This document shows, piece by piece, positions 1,236 through 29,262 of a DNA stretch of 40,090 nt. How positions within the stretch are numbered: position 1 is the stretch's first letter; each line of letters starts with the position of its first letter. The DNA comes from Acidobacteriota bacterium. Its GTDB lineage: Bacteria > Acidobacteriota > Vicinamibacteria > Vicinamibacterales > UBA8438. The notes beneath the pieces are model-generated. The model worked only from the letters and a program-made list of their open reading frames with translations, was not told the DNA's origin and searched no databases. The DNA lies in assembly GCA_022562495.1 (NCBI GenBank), contig JADFPE010000008.1, forward strand, positions 1 to 40,090, given 5' to 3'. Made by a program: the position numbers and the translations under genes.

Positions 1236-1697
1236 TCAAGAGCCTGGGTTCAGGAACGGGCGCCCTGACCAGTTGGAGGTCTTGAGCTCGATGGCATGGC
1301 CGTCGGGGTCGCGAAAGTAGAGGCTGCACCCGCCCTCGGGCCAGTCGATGCGGCTCTCGACGTCGACACCGGCGTCCGACAGCCGTCGCTCCCAGGCATC
1401 GATGTCTGACGGAGTGACGCCAAACGCCACGTGTAGACGGCCGGCGCCATCGGTCGGCGGGATCGTGCCGAACGGCAGAACCGTCGCCTCCCGCGACGCC
1501 CCCTTCTTGAACAGCAGCAGCACCTGGTCGTCGGTGATGTTCAGCACGACCATCCGGTCGATCGGCGCCATCGCGACGGTGAAGCCGAGCAGGTCCTGAT
1601 AGAACGCCTGCGACCGGGCAAGGTCGTCCACGTAGAGTGCCGTCTCGATCACGCCGCCGATGCGTGGGGTCGACGCCCTCTCACTCTGGGTCATCAC
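1236..1697 (-). CDS. VOC family (glyoxalase/bleomycin resistance-like) protein
   Basis: ETALYVDDLARSQAFYQDLLGF...SLYFRDPDGHAIEL motifs. Confidence 0.9.
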   Translation of the reverse strand: MMTQSERASTPRIGGVIETALYVDDLARSQAFYQDLLGFTVAMAPIDRMVVLNITDDQVLLLFKKGASREATVLPFGTIPPTDGAGRLHVAFGVTPSDIDAWERRLSDAGVDVESRIDWPEGGCSLYFRDPDGHAIELKTSNWSGRPFLNPGS

Positions 1698-1741: not shown

Positions 1742-1826
1742 GGTAGCAAGGCCCTTCAGGGCCGCTTCTCGATCCACCACGACACCCGGGCCGGATCTCT
1801 CAGCGGGCCTGAAGGCCCATGCTACC
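1742..1826. repeat. REPIN-like element: two inverted GTAG-headed hairpins
   Basis: GGTAGCAAGGCCCTTCAGGGCCGC (1742-1765) and GCGGGCCTGAAGGCCCATGCTACC (1803-1826); each arm is itself a GGCCC/GGGCC-TTCA hairpin. Confidence 0.75.
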
Positions 1827-1861: not shown

Positions 1862-2266
1862 TCACTCGCAGAAGACCCGAACCTTGTCGCCGTCCGGCGA
1901 GTCGACGTCGATCTTCAGATCTCGAAGCTCCTCGATCAGCTCGTCGCCCGACAGGCTCGACAGGTGCGACAGATCGATGCCACTGGCCTTGAGCCGCTCA
2001 CCCGCCATAATCGGGACCATCGTGGAGAGCTTGATGCCGGTGCGCAAGAGGCCCAGCGGCACGCGGATGTTGACCTTGTTGCCATCTCTGCTGTCAACGA
2101 CGACACGCAGGTATTTCAGCCGGCTGGAGCCGACCGCGTCGGCAGGCTTCACCCTCGGCTCACCCTCTGCCGATCCAGCCAGCTTGCTCAGGAGACGCTC
2201 GGCGTCCGCGACCTCGACCTGGCCTTCGGCGAGCATGCCCAAGACCTTCTTGCGTTCCTCACTTAT
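1862..2266 (-). CDS. SHOCT-like / DUF2089-type small protein; possible AUA start at 2264-2266 (TTG at 2242 in ORF track)
   Basis: ISEERKKVLGMLAEGQVEVADAERLLSKL...; AGGAGG 7 nt upstream of ATA; in-frame TGA at 2279-2281. Confidence 0.7.
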   Translation of the reverse strand: MSEERKKVLGMLAEGQVEVADAERLLSKLAGSAEGEPRVKPADAVGSSRLKYLRVVVDSRDGNKVNIRVPLGLLRTGIKLSTMVPIMAGERLKASGIDLSHLSSLSGDELIEELRDLKIDVDSPDGDKVRVFCE

Positions 2267-2294: not shown

Positions 2295-3447
2295 TATAGT
2301 CCGCCTGAATTGATGAAACATAACAGCCAGTGAGCGCGTCTCATCTGAGATGCGACGTGCCATTGAAATGCAGCTGGACAATGCGATGCGACGACAGCTT
2401 GAATTCGTGAGTCGGAGCCCAAGTGCATCCGTCCGCCTGGTAGAACGAGCCCAGATCGTTCTGCTAGCGGCCGCGGGGAAGGACAACATTGAAATCGCCG
2501 GGCGCCTCGGCATCACTCGACAGAAGGCTGGACGATGGAGAGACCGGTTTGCCCAGGGTGGTGTAGTGGGGATTGAAAAGGATGCTCCACGATCTGGTCG
2601 CATTCCGTCAATTTCCACACCGAAGCGGGCAGGCATCGTCAAGAAAACCACAACCGAGACACCTCCCAACGCGACGCACTGGAGCCGCGCATCTATGGCT
2701 GCGGCCTCCGGGGTCAGCGAGTCCACCATTGGCCGGATATGGCGCAGTTACGGACTCACACCTCATCTCACCCGAACCTTTAAGATTTCCAATGATCCAC
2801 GCTTCGCTGACAAGCTCGAAGATGTCGTTGGGTTGTATCTCAACCCGCCCGAACACGCCGTAGTGTTGTCCTGCGATGAGAAGAGTCAGATGCAGGCCTT
2901 GGATCGGACCCAGCCCGGCTTACCACTCAAGAAGGGTCGTAGCGGTACCATGATGCACGACTATAAGCGCAATGGCACAACGTCCCTTTTTGCGGCGCTC
3001 AATGTGATGGATGGTTCAGTCATTGGCACGTGTATGAACAAACACCGGCATCAGGAATGGGTCAAGTTTCTGAACCTCATCAAGCGACGCGTCCCAGAAG
3101 ACAAGGAGATTCACTTTATCTGCGACAACTACTCAACCCACAAACACCACACGGTAAAAGCGTGGTTTGAGCGACATCCACGAGTCCATTGCCACGACAC
3201 GCCAACCAGCGCTTCCTGGTTGAACATGGTGGAGCGCTTCTTTCGGGATCTATCGGAACGGCGCCTGACACGCGGCGTGTTCGAATCGGTCGAAGCCTTA
3301 CAGCGGGCGGTTGAGGGACATATCGCTCACAATAATCAGAATCCGAGCCCTTTTATTTGGACGGCCAAGGCCTCGGATATTCTGGCAAAAGTCGCACGTG
3401 CCCGCCGTAAACTTGACAAGTTACAGTCTGCTTGACGGGGACCACTA
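2295..3447 (+). mobile_element. IS630-family insertion sequence (approximate ends)
   Basis: IS630-type transposase ORF flanked by TA dinucleotides (CTAGTATAGTCC... / ...GGACCACTAG); imperfect terminal similarity. Confidence 0.7.
2350..3435 (+). CDS. IS630 family transposase
   Basis: HTH N-terminus, DDE core: LSCDEKSQMQALDRTQP, HFICDNYSTHKHHTVKAW, TPTSASWLNMVERFF. Confidence 0.95.
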   Translation: MRRAIEMQLDNAMRRQLEFVSRSPSASVRLVERAQIVLLAAAGKDNIEIAGRLGITRQKAGRWRDRFAQGGVVGIEKDAPRSGRIPSISTPKRAGIVKKTTTETPPNATHWSRASMAAASGVSESTIGRIWRSYGLTPHLTRTFKISNDPRFADKLEDVVGLYLNPPEHAVVLSCDEKSQMQALDRTQPGLPLKKGRSGTMMHDYKRNGTTSLFAALNVMDGSVIGTCMNKHRHQEWVKFLNLIKRRVPEDKEIHFICDNYSTHKHHTVKAWFERHPRVHCHDTPTSASWLNMVERFFRDLSERRLTRGVFESVEALQRAVEGHIAHNNQNPSPFIWTAKASDILAKVARARRKLDKLQSA

Positions 3448-15746: not shown

Positions 15747-17177
15747 ATGTCAGCTCTGATTCGCGCCGTCGGCAACCTCGGGGAGGGCCTCTCACGTTTC
15801 ACACAGCGGTGGATCCCCGACTCGTGGGTCGTCTGCATGACCCTGACCGTGCTGGCGATGCTGCTGGCCATATTCGGCGCCGGCGCCAGGCTCGAAGAGA
15901 CGGTGCTCGCCTGGGGCGGCGGGATGTGGGCGCTGCTCGAGCTGGCGATGCAGTTCACCATCGCCATGATCGCCGCGCACGCGTGCGTCTCGTCGCGGCC
16001 CGTCTTCCGCTTCCTCGACTGGCTGGCCGGGCGTCCGGACGAGGACCGGCCGGTCCAGGCGGTGGTCCTGCTGGGCGCGTTCTCGATCGTCGTCGCCTAT
16101 TTCAACTGGGCGGCGAGCGTGGTCGCCTCGGCGCTGTTCGTCCCGTTCATCGCACGGCGGAACCCGAAGGCGGACATCCGGCTGCTGGTCGTCGCCGGCT
16201 ATCTCGGTCTGGGCACCGTCTGGCATGGTGGGATCTCCGGCTCGGCACCGCTCATCATGGCCACTGCCGGCAATCCGATCACGACGCCGCCGCCCGGGAC
16301 CGAGCCGCTCGTCGAGCGCCTGCTACCGATTACCGAGACGCTGTTCAACGTGTTCAACCTGACCTACCTGCTGATCGTGTCGCTGGTCGCGCTCGGGATG
16401 GTGGCCCTGCTGCACCCGCGCCAGAACCCACGCACGCTGAGCGAGGACCAGTTGCAGCGGATCATGCCGGTGATGCCGGAGGAGGTGGAGCCAACGACGC
16501 CGGCCGCCCGTATCGAAGCGTTTCGCGGATGGATCTTCCTGGCGGTGATCCTGATCGGCTATCCGCTCGGCCGCTCGTTCACAACCGAGGTCCTGTCGGG
16601 AGCGCAGCCGTTCTTCACGTCGTTCGAGACGTGGTTCGGCGCCAACTGGACCATCAACGCCTACAACGCCGTGTTTCTGATCGGCGCCCTGCTGCTGCAG
16701 GGCCGGCCCGCGAACCTGGTCCGCGCCTTCCGCAACGGTGCCCCCACCGCGTCCGGGGTCATTCTGCAGTTCCCCTTCTACGCCGGGATCTTCGGGATCA
16801 TCCAGAGCACGGGGCTCGGTGACTGGCTCGGCGAGCTGTTCGTGCAAGTGGCCACCAGGGAGACCTATCCGTTGATCGTCTACATCTACTCGGGTGTCGT
16901 GAACATCTTCGTGCCGTCCGGCGGGTCGAAGTGGCTGATCGAGGCACCCTACCTGCTACCGGCCGCCATGGAACTGGCGGTGTCGCCTACCACGACCTTG
17001 CTCGCCTATTGCTACGGGGACTCGACGAGCAACCTGATCCAGCCGTTCTGGGCCATCCCGATTCTGACCGTCACGCGGTTGAAGTTCGGGGACATCCTCG
17101 GCTACAGCGGCCTGATCGCGGTGGTGCTCTTCCTCGTCACCACCGTCGCGATGCTCATCATTCCAGCGATGCTGTAG
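15747..17177 (+). CDS. Short-chain fatty acid transporter, AtoE family
   Basis: LTVLAMLLAIF..., FNWAASVVASALF, LGLGTVWHGGISGSAPLIMAT, FVPSGGSKWLIEAPYLLPAA. Confidence 0.9.
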   Translation: MSALIRAVGNLGEGLSRFTQRWIPDSWVVCMTLTVLAMLLAIFGAGARLEETVLAWGGGMWALLELAMQFTIAMIAAHACVSSRPVFRFLDWLAGRPDEDRPVQAVVLLGAFSIVVAYFNWAASVVASALFVPFIARRNPKADIRLLVVAGYLGLGTVWHGGISGSAPLIMATAGNPITTPPPGTEPLVERLLPITETLFNVFNLTYLLIVSLVALGMVALLHPRQNPRTLSEDQLQRIMPVMPEEVEPTTPAARIEAFRGWIFLAVILIGYPLGRSFTTEVLSGAQPFFTSFETWFGANWTINAYNAVFLIGALLLQGRPANLVRAFRNGAPTASGVILQFPFYAGIFGIIQSTGLGDWLGELFVQVATRETYPLIVYIYSGVVNIFVPSGGSKWLIEAPYLLPAAMELAVSPTTTLLAYCYGDSTSNLIQPFWAIPILTVTRLKFGDILGYSGLIAVVLFLVTTVAMLIIPAML

Positions 17178-22409: not shown

Positions 22410-25142
22410 TCACGGCATCCCTGACGCGTCTGCTTCCGCCTCAGCAGGTTGCGCGAGCTGGCGCAGCACGTACGGCAGGATGCCACCGTGGCGGTAGTAG
22501 CGCAGCTCCTCCGGGGTGTCGATCCGCACGGTCGCCGTGAACTCATGCGCGGCGCCGTCCGGCGCCACGGCGCGCACCGTCGCCTCGCCGCGCGGCGCGA
22601 GCCCGTCGGTGATACCGGTGATGTCGAACGTCTCGCGACCGGTCAGTCCGAGCGCCGCAACGCTGTCCCCGTCCTTGAACTGCAGCGGCAACACCCCCAT
22701 GAACACCAGATTGCTCCGATGAATCCGCTCGAAGCTCTCGGCGATGACGGCGTGGACGCCCAGCAACATGGTGCCCTTGGCGGCCCAGTCGCGGGAAGAA
22801 CCCGACCCGTACTCCGTGCCGGCCAGGACGAGCAGCGGCACCCCGGCCTCGGCGTATCGCATCGCGGCATCGTAGATGCTCAGCTCCTCGCCGTCCGGCT
22901 GATACCGCGTCCAGCCGCCCTCGGTCCCGGGCGCCAGCTGATTGCGGAGCCGGATGTTCGCGAAGGTGCCCCGCATCATCACCTCGTGGTTGCCGCGCCG
23001 GCTCCCAAACGAGTTGAAGTCCTGTGGGTCCACTCCACGCGAAATCAGATACCTCCCGGCCGGCCCGTCTACAGGGATGGCGCCCGCCGGGGAGATGTGG
23101 TCGGTCGTCACGCTGTCGCCCAACAGCGCCAGGACTCGCGCGCCCAGGACGTCCACCCGGGCCGCCGGCGTCGGCGCCAGGTTCTCGAAGAACGGCGGGT
23201 TGCGCACGTAGGTGGAGTCGTCGTCCCACGAGAAGCGCTGGCCGGTCGGCGCCGGCAGCCCGCGCCACCGTTCGTCGCCGTCGAACACCCCGCGATACTT
23301 CGACGTGAACTGCTCGGTGCGCACCGCGGCGGTCATCGCCGTCTGGATCTCGGCGGCCGACGGCCAGATGTCGCGCAGGAACACATCCCTCCCGTCTCGA
23401 TCCCGCCCGAGCGGCTCGGTGGTGAGGTCGACGGTCATCCACCCCGCCAGGGCATACGCGACCACGAGCGGCGGCGACGCCAAGTAGTTGGCGCGCACCT
23501 GCGACTGCACGCGACCCTCGAAGTTCCGGTTGCCGCTGAGGACCGACACGACCACCAGGTCGCGCGTCTTCACCTCGGCCGAGACATCCTCGGGCAGCGG
23601 CCCGCTGTTGCCGATGCAGGTGGTGCACCCGTAGCCGACCAACCGGAACCCGAGCTGGGCGAGCGGCGTCATCAACCCGGCCGCCTCGAGATACTCGGTG
23701 ACCACCAGCGACCCGGGCGCGAGACTGGTCTTCACCCAGGGCTTCGGCATCAACCCACTCGCGGCCGCCTTCTGCGCCAGCAGCCCAGCGGCGATCATCA
23801 CGCTCGGATTCGACGTGTTGGTGCAGCTCGTGATGGCGGCGATGACCACCGCACCGTGGTCGAGCCCGGCGCCGTTGCCGTTCGCCGACGCGACCGGTCG
23901 CGCGTCGCGACCCGCCAGCAGCTCCTGCAACGCGCCCGCGAACGCGGTCTTGGCCTGCGTGAGCGGCACCCGATCCTGCGGACGCTTCGGACCGGCAAGG
24001 CTCGGCTCGACCTCGCCGAGGTCGAACTCGACGACGCTCGTGTAGAGGGGATCGGCAGCGGCGACGCCGAACATCCCCTGCGCCCGGGCATACGCGTCGA
24101 CCAGGGCGACCTGCCGGACGTCCCGGCCGGTCAACGTCAGATAGTCGAGGGTCATCTGGTCGATCGGGCAGATGGCGACCGTGGACCCGTACTCGGGCGA
24201 CATGTTGCCCAGAGTGGCACGATCCTCCAGCGTCAGCGACGCGAGCCCCGGGCCGAAGAACTCCACGAACTTCCCGACGACCCCGTACCCGCGAAGCCGT
24301 TCGGTGATGGTCAGCACCAGGTCAGTCGTGGTCGTGCCCTGCGGTAGCCGCCCAATCAGCTTGAACCCGAGCACCTCGGGGATGAGCATCGAGATCGGCT
24401 GCCCGAGCATCGCCGCCTCCGCCTCGATGCCACCGACGCCCCAGCCCAGGACCCCCAGCCCGTTGACCATCGTCGTGTGCGAGTCGGTGCCGACGAGTGT
24501 GTCCGGGTACGCCATGGCGCCATCGCCGGTGCCGTCGGTGCAGACAACCCGCGCCAGATACTCGAGGTTCACCTGGTGCACAATGCCGGTGTCGGGCGGC
24601 ACGACCCGGAAGTTGTCGAACGCCTGCTGTCCCCACTTCAGAAACGCATAGCGCTCCTTGTTGCGCGAGAATTCGAGCTGTGCGTTCAGATCGAAGGCGT
24701 TCGCCTGGCGAAAGTGATCCACCTGCACCGAGTGGTCGATGACCAGCTCTGCCGGCTGCAGCGGGTTGATGCGTTCCGGGTCTCCCCCGAGCCGGACGAC
24801 GCCGTCGCGCATGGCCGCCAGGTCGACCACGACCGGCACGCCGGTGAAGTCCTGCAGCAGGACCCGCGACGGCATGAAAGGGATTTCCTTGGTCGCACGC
24901 GCCTGCGGGTCCCAGCCGGCGAGCGCCTGGATGTCGTCCGGCGTGACGCTGTGCCCATCTTCGCGTCGCAGCAGGTTCTCGAGCAGGATCTTCAACGAGT
25001 ACGGCAGCCGCGCCACATTCGGAAAGCCGGCGCGCTCGAGCGCCGGCAGACTGTGAAACGACACGGTGATGTCGCCGACGGACAACGCGGTGCGGGTCCC
25101 AAACGTGTTGTGGGTGCTCATCTGCATGTTCCGTGGTGTCAT
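22410..25142 (-). CDS. acnA: Aconitate hydratase AcnA
   Basis: [53 protein letters not shown]. Confidence 0.97.
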
Positions 25143-26899: not shown

Positions 26900-27805
26900 T
26901 CAGGCGTGTCCCGTCTCCTGTCGCCTGTCTCCTGTCTCCTCGGGAGGTCGGTCAAAGCAACCCAGGACGGCGGCGAGATAGCCGACGACGGCGGTCTTGT
27001 CGCCCGAGACATCTCCCGAGTCTGCGTAGCACAACGCTCGGGCGTCCCGCGCCCCGAGCGCGGCGGCCGCCATCATGACCGCGACGGCGGCGCCGCCGCC
27101 GCAGGCGACACACCGGCCTCGCTCGTGCGTCGGATAGCGCTCGTACTCCGCCAGCAACCCGTCCGGATCGAAACGAGTGACATAGTCGATGACCACGCCG
27201 TCGAGCGAGGCCGCACGGTCGGCGTCGAAGTAGTGCGAGAGATCGGTACTGGCCACGAGCAGCGGTCTCAGCCCGGCGAGTGTCCCGGCCAGCGCCTCGG
27301 CCAACGCCACGATCGTCCCGCGTTCCTGATAGCCGATGACCAACGGCACGATCGGGGTCTCAGGCAGGACATGACGCAAGAACGGCAGCTGCATCTCGAG
27401 CGAGTGCTCGCGCACGTGCGCGGTCGGGTGGGTCCTGATACACGGTGCGCGCATCAGCTGGTCAGCGACCCCTGAGGCCACAGGCACCGGGCCGAGGGGG
27501 GTGTCGAACGCCCCGCTCGGGTAGATCGCCACCCCGTCGAACCCCACATGGTGCGACGGCCCGACCAGCACCGCGACGTCATAGGCGCGGCCCGCCACTG
27601 CCTGATAGGCGTGGGCAGCGACCGGACCCGAGTAGACGAGACCGGCATGCGGCACGATGATGGCAACGATGTCGCCCGACGGGGTGTCCTCGACGGCCGC
27701 GAGATGGGAGGTCACCGCCGCGCGCAATGGCGCCTCGGCGGCCGGATACCAGCTACCGGCCACCGCCGGCGGCCTTACGAGCTCATCACGCTCAGCGTGT
27801 GCCAT
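26900..27805 (-). CDS. amrB: MEMO1 family protein (AmmeMemoRadiSam system protein B)
   Basis: PPAVAGSWYPA, IVPHAGLVYSGPVAAHAY, LVGPSHHVGFDGVA, HSLEMQLPFL, STDLSHYF. Confidence 0.93.
   Translation of the reverse strand: MAHAERDELVRPPAVAGSWYPAAEAPLRAAVTSHLAAVEDTPSGDIVAIIVPHAGLVYSGPVAAHAYQAVAGRAYDVAVLVGPSHHVGFDGVAIYPSGAFDTPLGPVPVASGVADQLMRAPCIRTHPTAHVREHSLEMQLPFLRHVLPETPIVPLVIGYQERGTIVALAEALAGTLAGLRPLLVASTDLSHYFDADRAASLDGVVIDYVTRFDPDGLLAEYERYPTHERGRCVACGGGAAVAVMMAAAALGARDARALCYADSGDVSGDKTAVVGYLAAVLGCFDRPPEETGDRRQETGHA
26913..26943. repeat. Period-7 tandem repeat (TCCTGTC)n overlapping amrB 3' end
   Basis: GTCTCCTGTCGCCTGTCTCCTGTCTCCTCGG, read as EETGDRRQETGHA. Confidence 0.6.
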
Positions 27806-27849
27806 CTCGAACCCGCGCATCCATCGTGGTCCGTTGCATACAGGTCGGC

Positions 27850-27970
27850 GCGGCGCCGAGGCGCCCGCCCCAGCAGTCGCACGGAGGGAGACTTCCGGCA
27901 GTAGTCGACCCCGTTGAGCGGACAGCCCAGCGCCGGTCCTGGCGGGATGCACCGGCGGACCAATGCCGGC
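27850..27970 (+). repeat. Dispersed intergenic repeat family 1, copy B
   Basis: GGCGCCGAGGCGCCC...GGAGGGAGACTTCCGGCAGTAGTCGACC...GGCGGGATGCACCGGCGGACC. Confidence 0.6.
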
Positions 27971-28055
27971 GTACTCATGAAACGGGCCATTTGGTCGCAC
28001 ATACGAGATCCGGTGTCGAAGGACGCCCTCCGCCGCCCAACGTGCCTGCGGTCTG

Positions 28056-28247
28056 TCACTCGTCAGTACGCCGCCGGATTGCGATACGGACCCCAATATA
28101 GACCACGAGCGTCAGGATGGCCGGACTCCCCATGACCAACCAGAACGGGTCGACGGTCAGCCCGACGACAAGCGACAGCACGCCGAGGATCAGCATGATC
28201 CCCACCATCCACGGCGGATGCTGGAACAGCGGGCGCTCGTCGGACAT
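28056..28247 (-). CDS. Small two-TM membrane protein
   Basis: MSDERPLFQHPPWMVGIMLILGVLSLVVGLTVDPFWLVMGSPAILTLVVYIGVRIAIRRRTDE. Confidence 0.6.
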   Translation of the reverse strand: MSDERPLFQHPPWMVGIMLILGVLSLVVGLTVDPFWLVMGSPAILTLVVYIGVRIAIRRRTDE

Positions 28248-28338
28248 ACCTCTGATGGGATTGTTGCACACCGCATGGCAACGCGGGTCGGCCAGCCGGG
28301 ATGCCGTTGACCCGGGAGACCGACTGTGGTTGGAGACG

Positions 28339-28425
28339 CTAGTCGTTCGTGGTCCAAGTCCGGCGTCGCACCGAGACCCGTTCTGCGAGACGCCACGTCT
28401 GGCCAGTGCACGGCGCGACGCAGGA
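28339..28425. repeat. CTAG-associated repeat family 2, copy 1
   Basis: CTAGTCGTTCGTGGTCCAAGTCCGGCGTCGCACCGAGACCCGTTCTGCGAGACGCCACGTC. Confidence 0.55.
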
Positions 28426-28537
28426 ACACACTGGCAGTCTGTGACCCCCTGATCTCGAAGCCCAGCGCAGGCCTCGCGAGATTCAGCGCCGCTCGAATGC
28501 AGCCAAACGTGCTCCACGGACTGCGAGAGATGATGCC

Positions 28538-29262
28538 ATGCACACGCGGATGCGACGGATCCTATCGGTCGCGTTCCTGTGCGGGATCGGGATGGCGGCC
28601 GTACACGCCGTCGCTGATGACGACTACACGGACGAGATCGAGGCGTGGCGGGTCGAGCACGAGGCGCAGCTCGAGGCCGACGACGGCTGGTTGACTGTGT
28701 CCGCGCTGTTCTTCCTGCGTGAGGGCGAGAACAACTTCGGGTCGAGCCCGCGCAACGACCTCACCCTACCGGACGGCGTCCCGGCCGAGGCGGGCGTCTT
28801 CGAGGTGCGCCACGGCACAGTGACGCTCCACGCGCCGACCGGGCGCACCCTCCCGGTCACCGGCGAGCCGGTCACACACGCGCAGCTCTACCCATCCGAG
28901 CGCCGCGCGACGCTCACTAGATGAACATCCTGGGCGACATCGAGACCGACACGAGCACGGGGTATGTGACGTTGACGGTGGCGGGGAAGGAGGTACGGAT
29001 GCTGCCGGTCGACTCCGGCCGGCGGCTGTGGTTCATCATGCGCGACCTGACCAGTAGCGACGACACGTACCCGGCGGCGCGGTTCCTCTACGCCGACGCG
29101 CCGGATGCCGATGGGTGGACGACCGTGGACTTCAACATGGCGTACAACCCACCGTGCGCGTTCAACCCGTACACGACCTGTCCGCTGCCGCCGCCCGACA
29201 ATCGCCTGGATGTGCGCATCGAGGCAGGCGAGAAGAACTACAAGGGACCGGGAGCACACTGA
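28538..29262 (+). pseudogene. DUF1684 protein split into two ORFs (28538..28924, 28921..29262), middle apparently deleted
   Basis: N half: WRVEHEAQLEADDGWLTVSALFFLREGENNFGSSPRNDLTLP; C half: NILGDIETDTSTGYVTL...PAARFLYADAPDADGWTTVDFNMAYNPPCAFNPYTTCPLPPPDNRLDVRIEAGEKNY; ATGA overlap. Confidence 0.75.

Follow-up and report, generated by a model that had tools for sequence, protein, structure and literature searches.

A heterotypic inverted doublet of a RAYT-linked GTAG REP family in Vicinamibacterales

The window, by which we mean the whole 40,090-nt stretch of acidobacterial DNA that was analysed, carries at positions 1742-1826 two inverted arms, and the question that this locus raises is whether they form a REPIN-like element mobilised by a RAYT, as the original prediction proposed. 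Direct reading found both arms, with their TTCA-loop hairpins, exactly where they had been predicted, and the locus and its immediate context are composed as follows.

1742-1763, plus strand: left REP arm, C-type, GGTAGCAAGGCCCTTCAGGGCC (read directly, with an exact family match); GTAG head 1743-1746, stem GGCCC 1750-1754 / GGGCC 1759-1763, loop TTCA 1755-1758
1764-1804, no strand: spacer of 41 nt, partly self-complementary (GCTTCTCGATCC ... GGATCTCTCAGC)
1805-1826, minus strand: right REP arm, G-type, GGTAGCATGGGCCTTCAGGCCC (read directly, with an exact family match); GTAG head 1825-1822, stem GGGCC 1818-1814 / GGCCC 1809-1805, loop TTCA
1236-1697, minus strand: flanking VOC-superfamily/glyoxalase gene (Pfam PF00903, 52.6 bits), context only
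1862-2242, minus strand: flanking open reading frame of 126 aa, context only

The two close REPs lie inverted and heads-out, the arrangement expected of a REPIN, between the VOC gene and the 126-aa frame, both on the minus strand, the latter matching no Pfam or NCBIfam family. The arms differ by a swapped stem pair, which is C-G at 1752/1761 in the left arm and G-C at 1816/1807 in the right one, and they are the only arm matches in the 40-kb window at <=3 mismatches, against 0.02 expected. An IS630-family transposase gene (2350-3435, plus strand; NF033545, 256 bits) lies about 0.5 kb from the doublet, and elsewhere the window holds ordinary chromosomal content, such as genes for a short-chain fatty acid transporter (15747-17177, plus strand) and an aconitase (22410-25142, minus strand).

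The arm is far from unique in its own genome (G000; 4.74 Mb in 339 contigs, 89.7% complete), where the pattern GGTAGCANGGSCCTTCAGGSCC had 16 exact matches and 64 at <=2 mismatches on both strands, compared with 0 for the reversed-pattern control. The context of these copies yielded the family consensus GTAGCA[A/C]GGSCC-TTCA-GGSCC-GY, that is, a GTAG head 5' of a short palindrome dispersed in many copies per genome, as defines GTAG (GTRG) REPs. The GGTAGCA start originally given for the two arms does not hold for the family, as the first G of GGTAG varies among copies and does not belong to the consensus. High copy numbers also occur in G002, of the same genus (61 copies), and in G027, which represents a second genus of that taxonomic family (67 copies); the REP is sparser in G001, G017 and G025, with few or no copies in other genera of Vicinamibacterales.

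Since pairing must not be selected for by the search itself, copies for the analysis of the stem were gathered with a pattern that left all stem letters free, which returned 26, 43 and 57 copies in three genomes (126 in total). Stem cells were paired in 98.1% of cases, against a mean of 84.9% and a maximum of 88.3% in 2000 shuffles, which overstate independence because the copies of one genome share ancestry. Pairing was kept chiefly by exchanges between C·G and G·C at stem pair 3 (C-G 66, G-C 57, A-T 1, unpaired 2), both states occurring in all three genomes and the pair being broken in only 2 of the 126 copies, while stem pair 2 was G-C in 110 copies and C-G in 11. The covariation is therefore real, the stem being maintained by compensatory change, and it extends far beyond the single swap that was first seen between the two arms.

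That swap had been read as support for two independent hairpins, and the folding predictions qualify this part of the claim. At minimum energy the 89 nt are predicted to form a single long hairpin, both as RNA (-53.6 kcal/mol, z -7.4) and as DNA (-30.4, z -7.3), and this fold is preferred despite the arm-to-arm mismatches that the swap creates; the separate arm hairpins are less stable as RNA (-11.4 and -12.7). The spacer lengthens this predicted hairpin, although its length is not conserved among doublets, and within a REP the two bases that follow GTA (G-C) are able to pair with its tail (G-Y), giving a 2-nt bulge. As the doublet is predicted to fold as a single long hairpin, the covariation speaks for a constraint on the single REP hairpin and not for separate arms. 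Stable folding also brings in the alternative that these hairpins act between genes as control elements at the RNA level, terminating transcripts or stabilising mRNA, and that selection, with no transposase involved, has multiplied them. The copies seen do adjoin genes and fold well as RNA, and some G-T pairs and the G-Y tail would suit RNA pairing; against this, the terminator scan revealed no T-run terminator at the doublet, an Rfam search gave no match, and the GTAG head is conserved although it lies outside the main stem. Together with the two RAYT genes flanked on both sides by the identical REP, described next, these observations make a purely RNA-level origin very improbable.

These genes, at G017:C21:35227-35703 and G027:C194:2074-2568, belong to relatives in a sister genus within Vicinamibacterales and encode proteins that are 65% identical to each other. 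Both exceed the 80-bit cut-off of the NCBIfam REP-associated tyrosine transposase model NF047646 (99.4 bits for G017:C21 and 113.9 bits for G027:C194) and carry the HUH motif PDHVH and the tyrosine motif YILxNP that place them in the Y1_Tnp/RAYT family, with E. coli TnpAREP (4er8) as their best solved relative. Inverted heads-out copies of GTAGCAAGGCCC-TTCA-GGGCC lie on both sides of each gene within a few hundred bases, and further REP copies are close by; in G017, 4 of the about ten copies of the genome fall within 0.7 kb at the RAYT gene. The expected association of this REP with a flanked RAYT gene was thus found in the relatives but not in the genome of the window. No cognate-type RAYT gene was detected in G000 or in its three genus mates G001, G002 and G003, assemblies that are all 74-89.7% complete, and in G000 the gene may be hidden by the incomplete assembly, or it may have been lost, leaving no active RAYT. 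A search for the cognate RAYT region among plasmids gave no match.

G000 has four Y1_Tnp matches, of which three are IS200-type genes or fragments and one is a RAYT. The IS200-type Y1 genes (C81, C121, C278) were discarded as drivers, since no REP copies adjoin them, with the exception of one diverged copy about 1.7 kb from the gene on C121. The remaining match (C130, about 27760-28614) represents a second RAYT type. Being the sole RAYT found in G000, this resident protein could have moved the window doublet in trans, an explanation that we consider improbable: it is only about 40-42% identical to the cognate type, and it is embedded in another REP family, GTGGCGCAGGCC-TTCA-GGCCTGCG, with about 70 copies in G000 (<=2 mismatches), alongside a relative, GTGGCGCACGGC-TTCA-GCCGTGCG. 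Of 30 related RAYTs in Vicinamibacterales, about 20 have hairpins with GTAG or GTGG heads at their flanks, by a count made by hand, and these hairpins vary from gene to gene, which fits the expected pattern of one RAYT with one REP. Their stems include GTCCGGC, GGCGGGTCC, GCTTGGC, GGCAACCC and GCAGCCC, and the hairpin arrays are often regular tandem repeats on one side of the gene and inverted on the other.

REPs of this family are strongly clustered, with 11, 10 and 12 neighbour pairs within 150 bp in three genomes against about 0.1 expected. When stem types were scored in flanks retrieved from three genomes, 17 of 18 heads-out doublets combined unlike types (binomial P = 7e-5 under random pairing), as did 25 of the 29 inverted pairs overall, whereas 22 of 23 tandem neighbours were of like type (Fisher P 2e-9). 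Local duplication readily explains the like type of tandem neighbours, but not the unlike type of inverted partners. Both the excess of close pairs and their unlike stems weigh against the view that the inverted pair is no REPIN but two unrelated singlets that happened to insert near each other. In favour of that view, heads-out spacers are anywhere between 12 and 61 nt long and for the most part bear no relation to one another, lacking the uniform length of REPIN spacers, and singlets dominate over heads-out members in each of the three genomes (38, 30 and 24 against 16, 15 and 19, respectively); on balance, we find it possible but doubtful.

Doublet members were also not less diverged than singlets, in a comparison whose search threshold was biased against doublets, so that doublets neither predominate nor appear more conserved, as would be anticipated for a REPIN replicating as a unit. 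Given the singlet majority, the absence of lower divergence and the unconserved spacers, amplification of the doublet is unsupported, and the term REPIN describes the anatomy here (inverted heads-out arms of a RAYT-linked REP) and does not denote a proven mobile unit. A compact repeated doublet of another genus, represented by G010 and G022, has the form GTAGCAAGGGCC-TTTA-GGCCC-GCTGAACGATCAGC-GCCCC-TGAA-GGGGC-TTGCTAC with a constant 14-nt spacer; it is heterotypic too, and may be a real mobile unit.

The presence of the REP also varies at an orthologous site. Between a tRNA-Leu gene and the next gene it is present in G000, G002 and G027 (twice in the last) and absent from G001, G010, G017 and G022, which reflects gain or loss of the element; the flanks of this site have diverged so far that no empty site can be aligned to the exact base. 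No orthologous empty site was found for the window doublet itself, G001-G003 having no syntenic DNA. Taken together, we interpret the feature as a heads-out inverted pair from a Vicinamibacterales family of GTAG-headed REPs, a family most likely spread by a cognate RAYT (HUH/Y1) acting on single-stranded DNA, to which we assign a probability of roughly 90%. In this model an enzyme of the G017/G027 type would recognise each arm by its GTAG head and small TTCA hairpin on a single-stranded GTAGCAAGGSCC-TTCA-GGSCC substrate, would presumably cut beside the hairpin and could then reinsert the element at another place; that the window doublet moved as a unit, and that a protein of this type was its mover, is likewise conjectured from sequence.

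We also considered, as a speculative and rather doubtful extension, that the two stem types reflect a functional rule by which heads-out doublets must pair a C-type with a G-type arm. Each arm would then fold perfectly alone while the arms mispair with each other, so that a RAYT dimer would have access to both hairpins, at the left and at the right end, and a perfect long palindrome prone to deletion would be avoided. If true, this rule would make the family a simple one-base-pair system for asking why REP heterodimers exist.

Neither circumstance that would have overturned the original prediction, an arm unique in its genome or a lack of RAYTs in this strain and its relatives, was encountered, and the prediction is supported with the qualifications given above. 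These results indicate that the RAYT-linked GTAG REP family is real and, within the literature searched, new to this lineage, the window feature being a heterotypic inverted doublet of it. Acidobacteriota, represented in the literature searched by transposases or atypical structures only, thereby gain a canonical GTAG-REP/RAYT pair, and Vicinamibacterales prove to hold many RAYTs that each have a hairpin family of their own; the gene-specific GTRG arrays of these RAYTs are good material for the study of RAYT-REP co-evolution.

Among known systems, the nearest plan in the sections consulted of the description of the GTAG REP super-family (Di Nocera et al. 2013, PMC3733652) is that of GTAG-1/GTAG-2. 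The families described there share with ours the GTAG head, unpaired bases before the stem, a short stem (reported as 5 bp for Thauera GTAG-1), a small loop and a short tail on the far side, as well as complementary stem subtypes, homo- and heterodimers and association with RAYTs. The GGSCC-TTCA-GGSCC stem and loop probably sets our family apart, as judged from the descriptions in those sections of a work that gives 24 consensus sequences. GTAG repeats are listed there for Proteobacteria, Cyanobacteria, Chloroflexi and PVC but not for Acidobacteria, which the same sections mention for transposases only. They also describe REP heterodimers in other families, proposed to escape SbcCD; the phenomenon is therefore not new, but the rule is followed with unusual strictness here, and the near-absolute pairing of opposite types when inverted and of the same type in tandem offers a clean test of that proposal, in which heterodimers persist by escaping palindrome clearance.

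The REPINs of Pseudomonas fluorescens SBW25 (Bertels and Rainey 2011, PMC3116915) likewise consist of close inverted REPs with a spacer and a long predicted hairpin. In SBW25, 61% of REPs occur in doublets, which are more conserved than singlets, whereas here singlets dominate, doublet members are no more conserved and spacer length varies. The BIMEs of E. coli, with their Y/Z REPs and TnpAREP (4er8; PMC8266576), resemble our family in combining heterotypic REPs in one element, in the GTAG head, in the unpaired AA in or beside the stem and in having a Y1/HUH relative in TnpAREP. The AA bulge of the E. coli REPs, however, lies mid-stem, and their types differ in length, unlike the arm types described here, which differ by one compensated stem pair. 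Finally, Class 3 TnpAY1 of Acidobacteria, for instance of Solibacter usitatus (PMC6006769), are also acidobacterial Y1 transposases with multicopy secondary structures, but those structures are 'atypical' and the tyrosine motif is another one, whereas the RAYTs reported here carry YILxNP and are accompanied by canonical GTRG hairpins.
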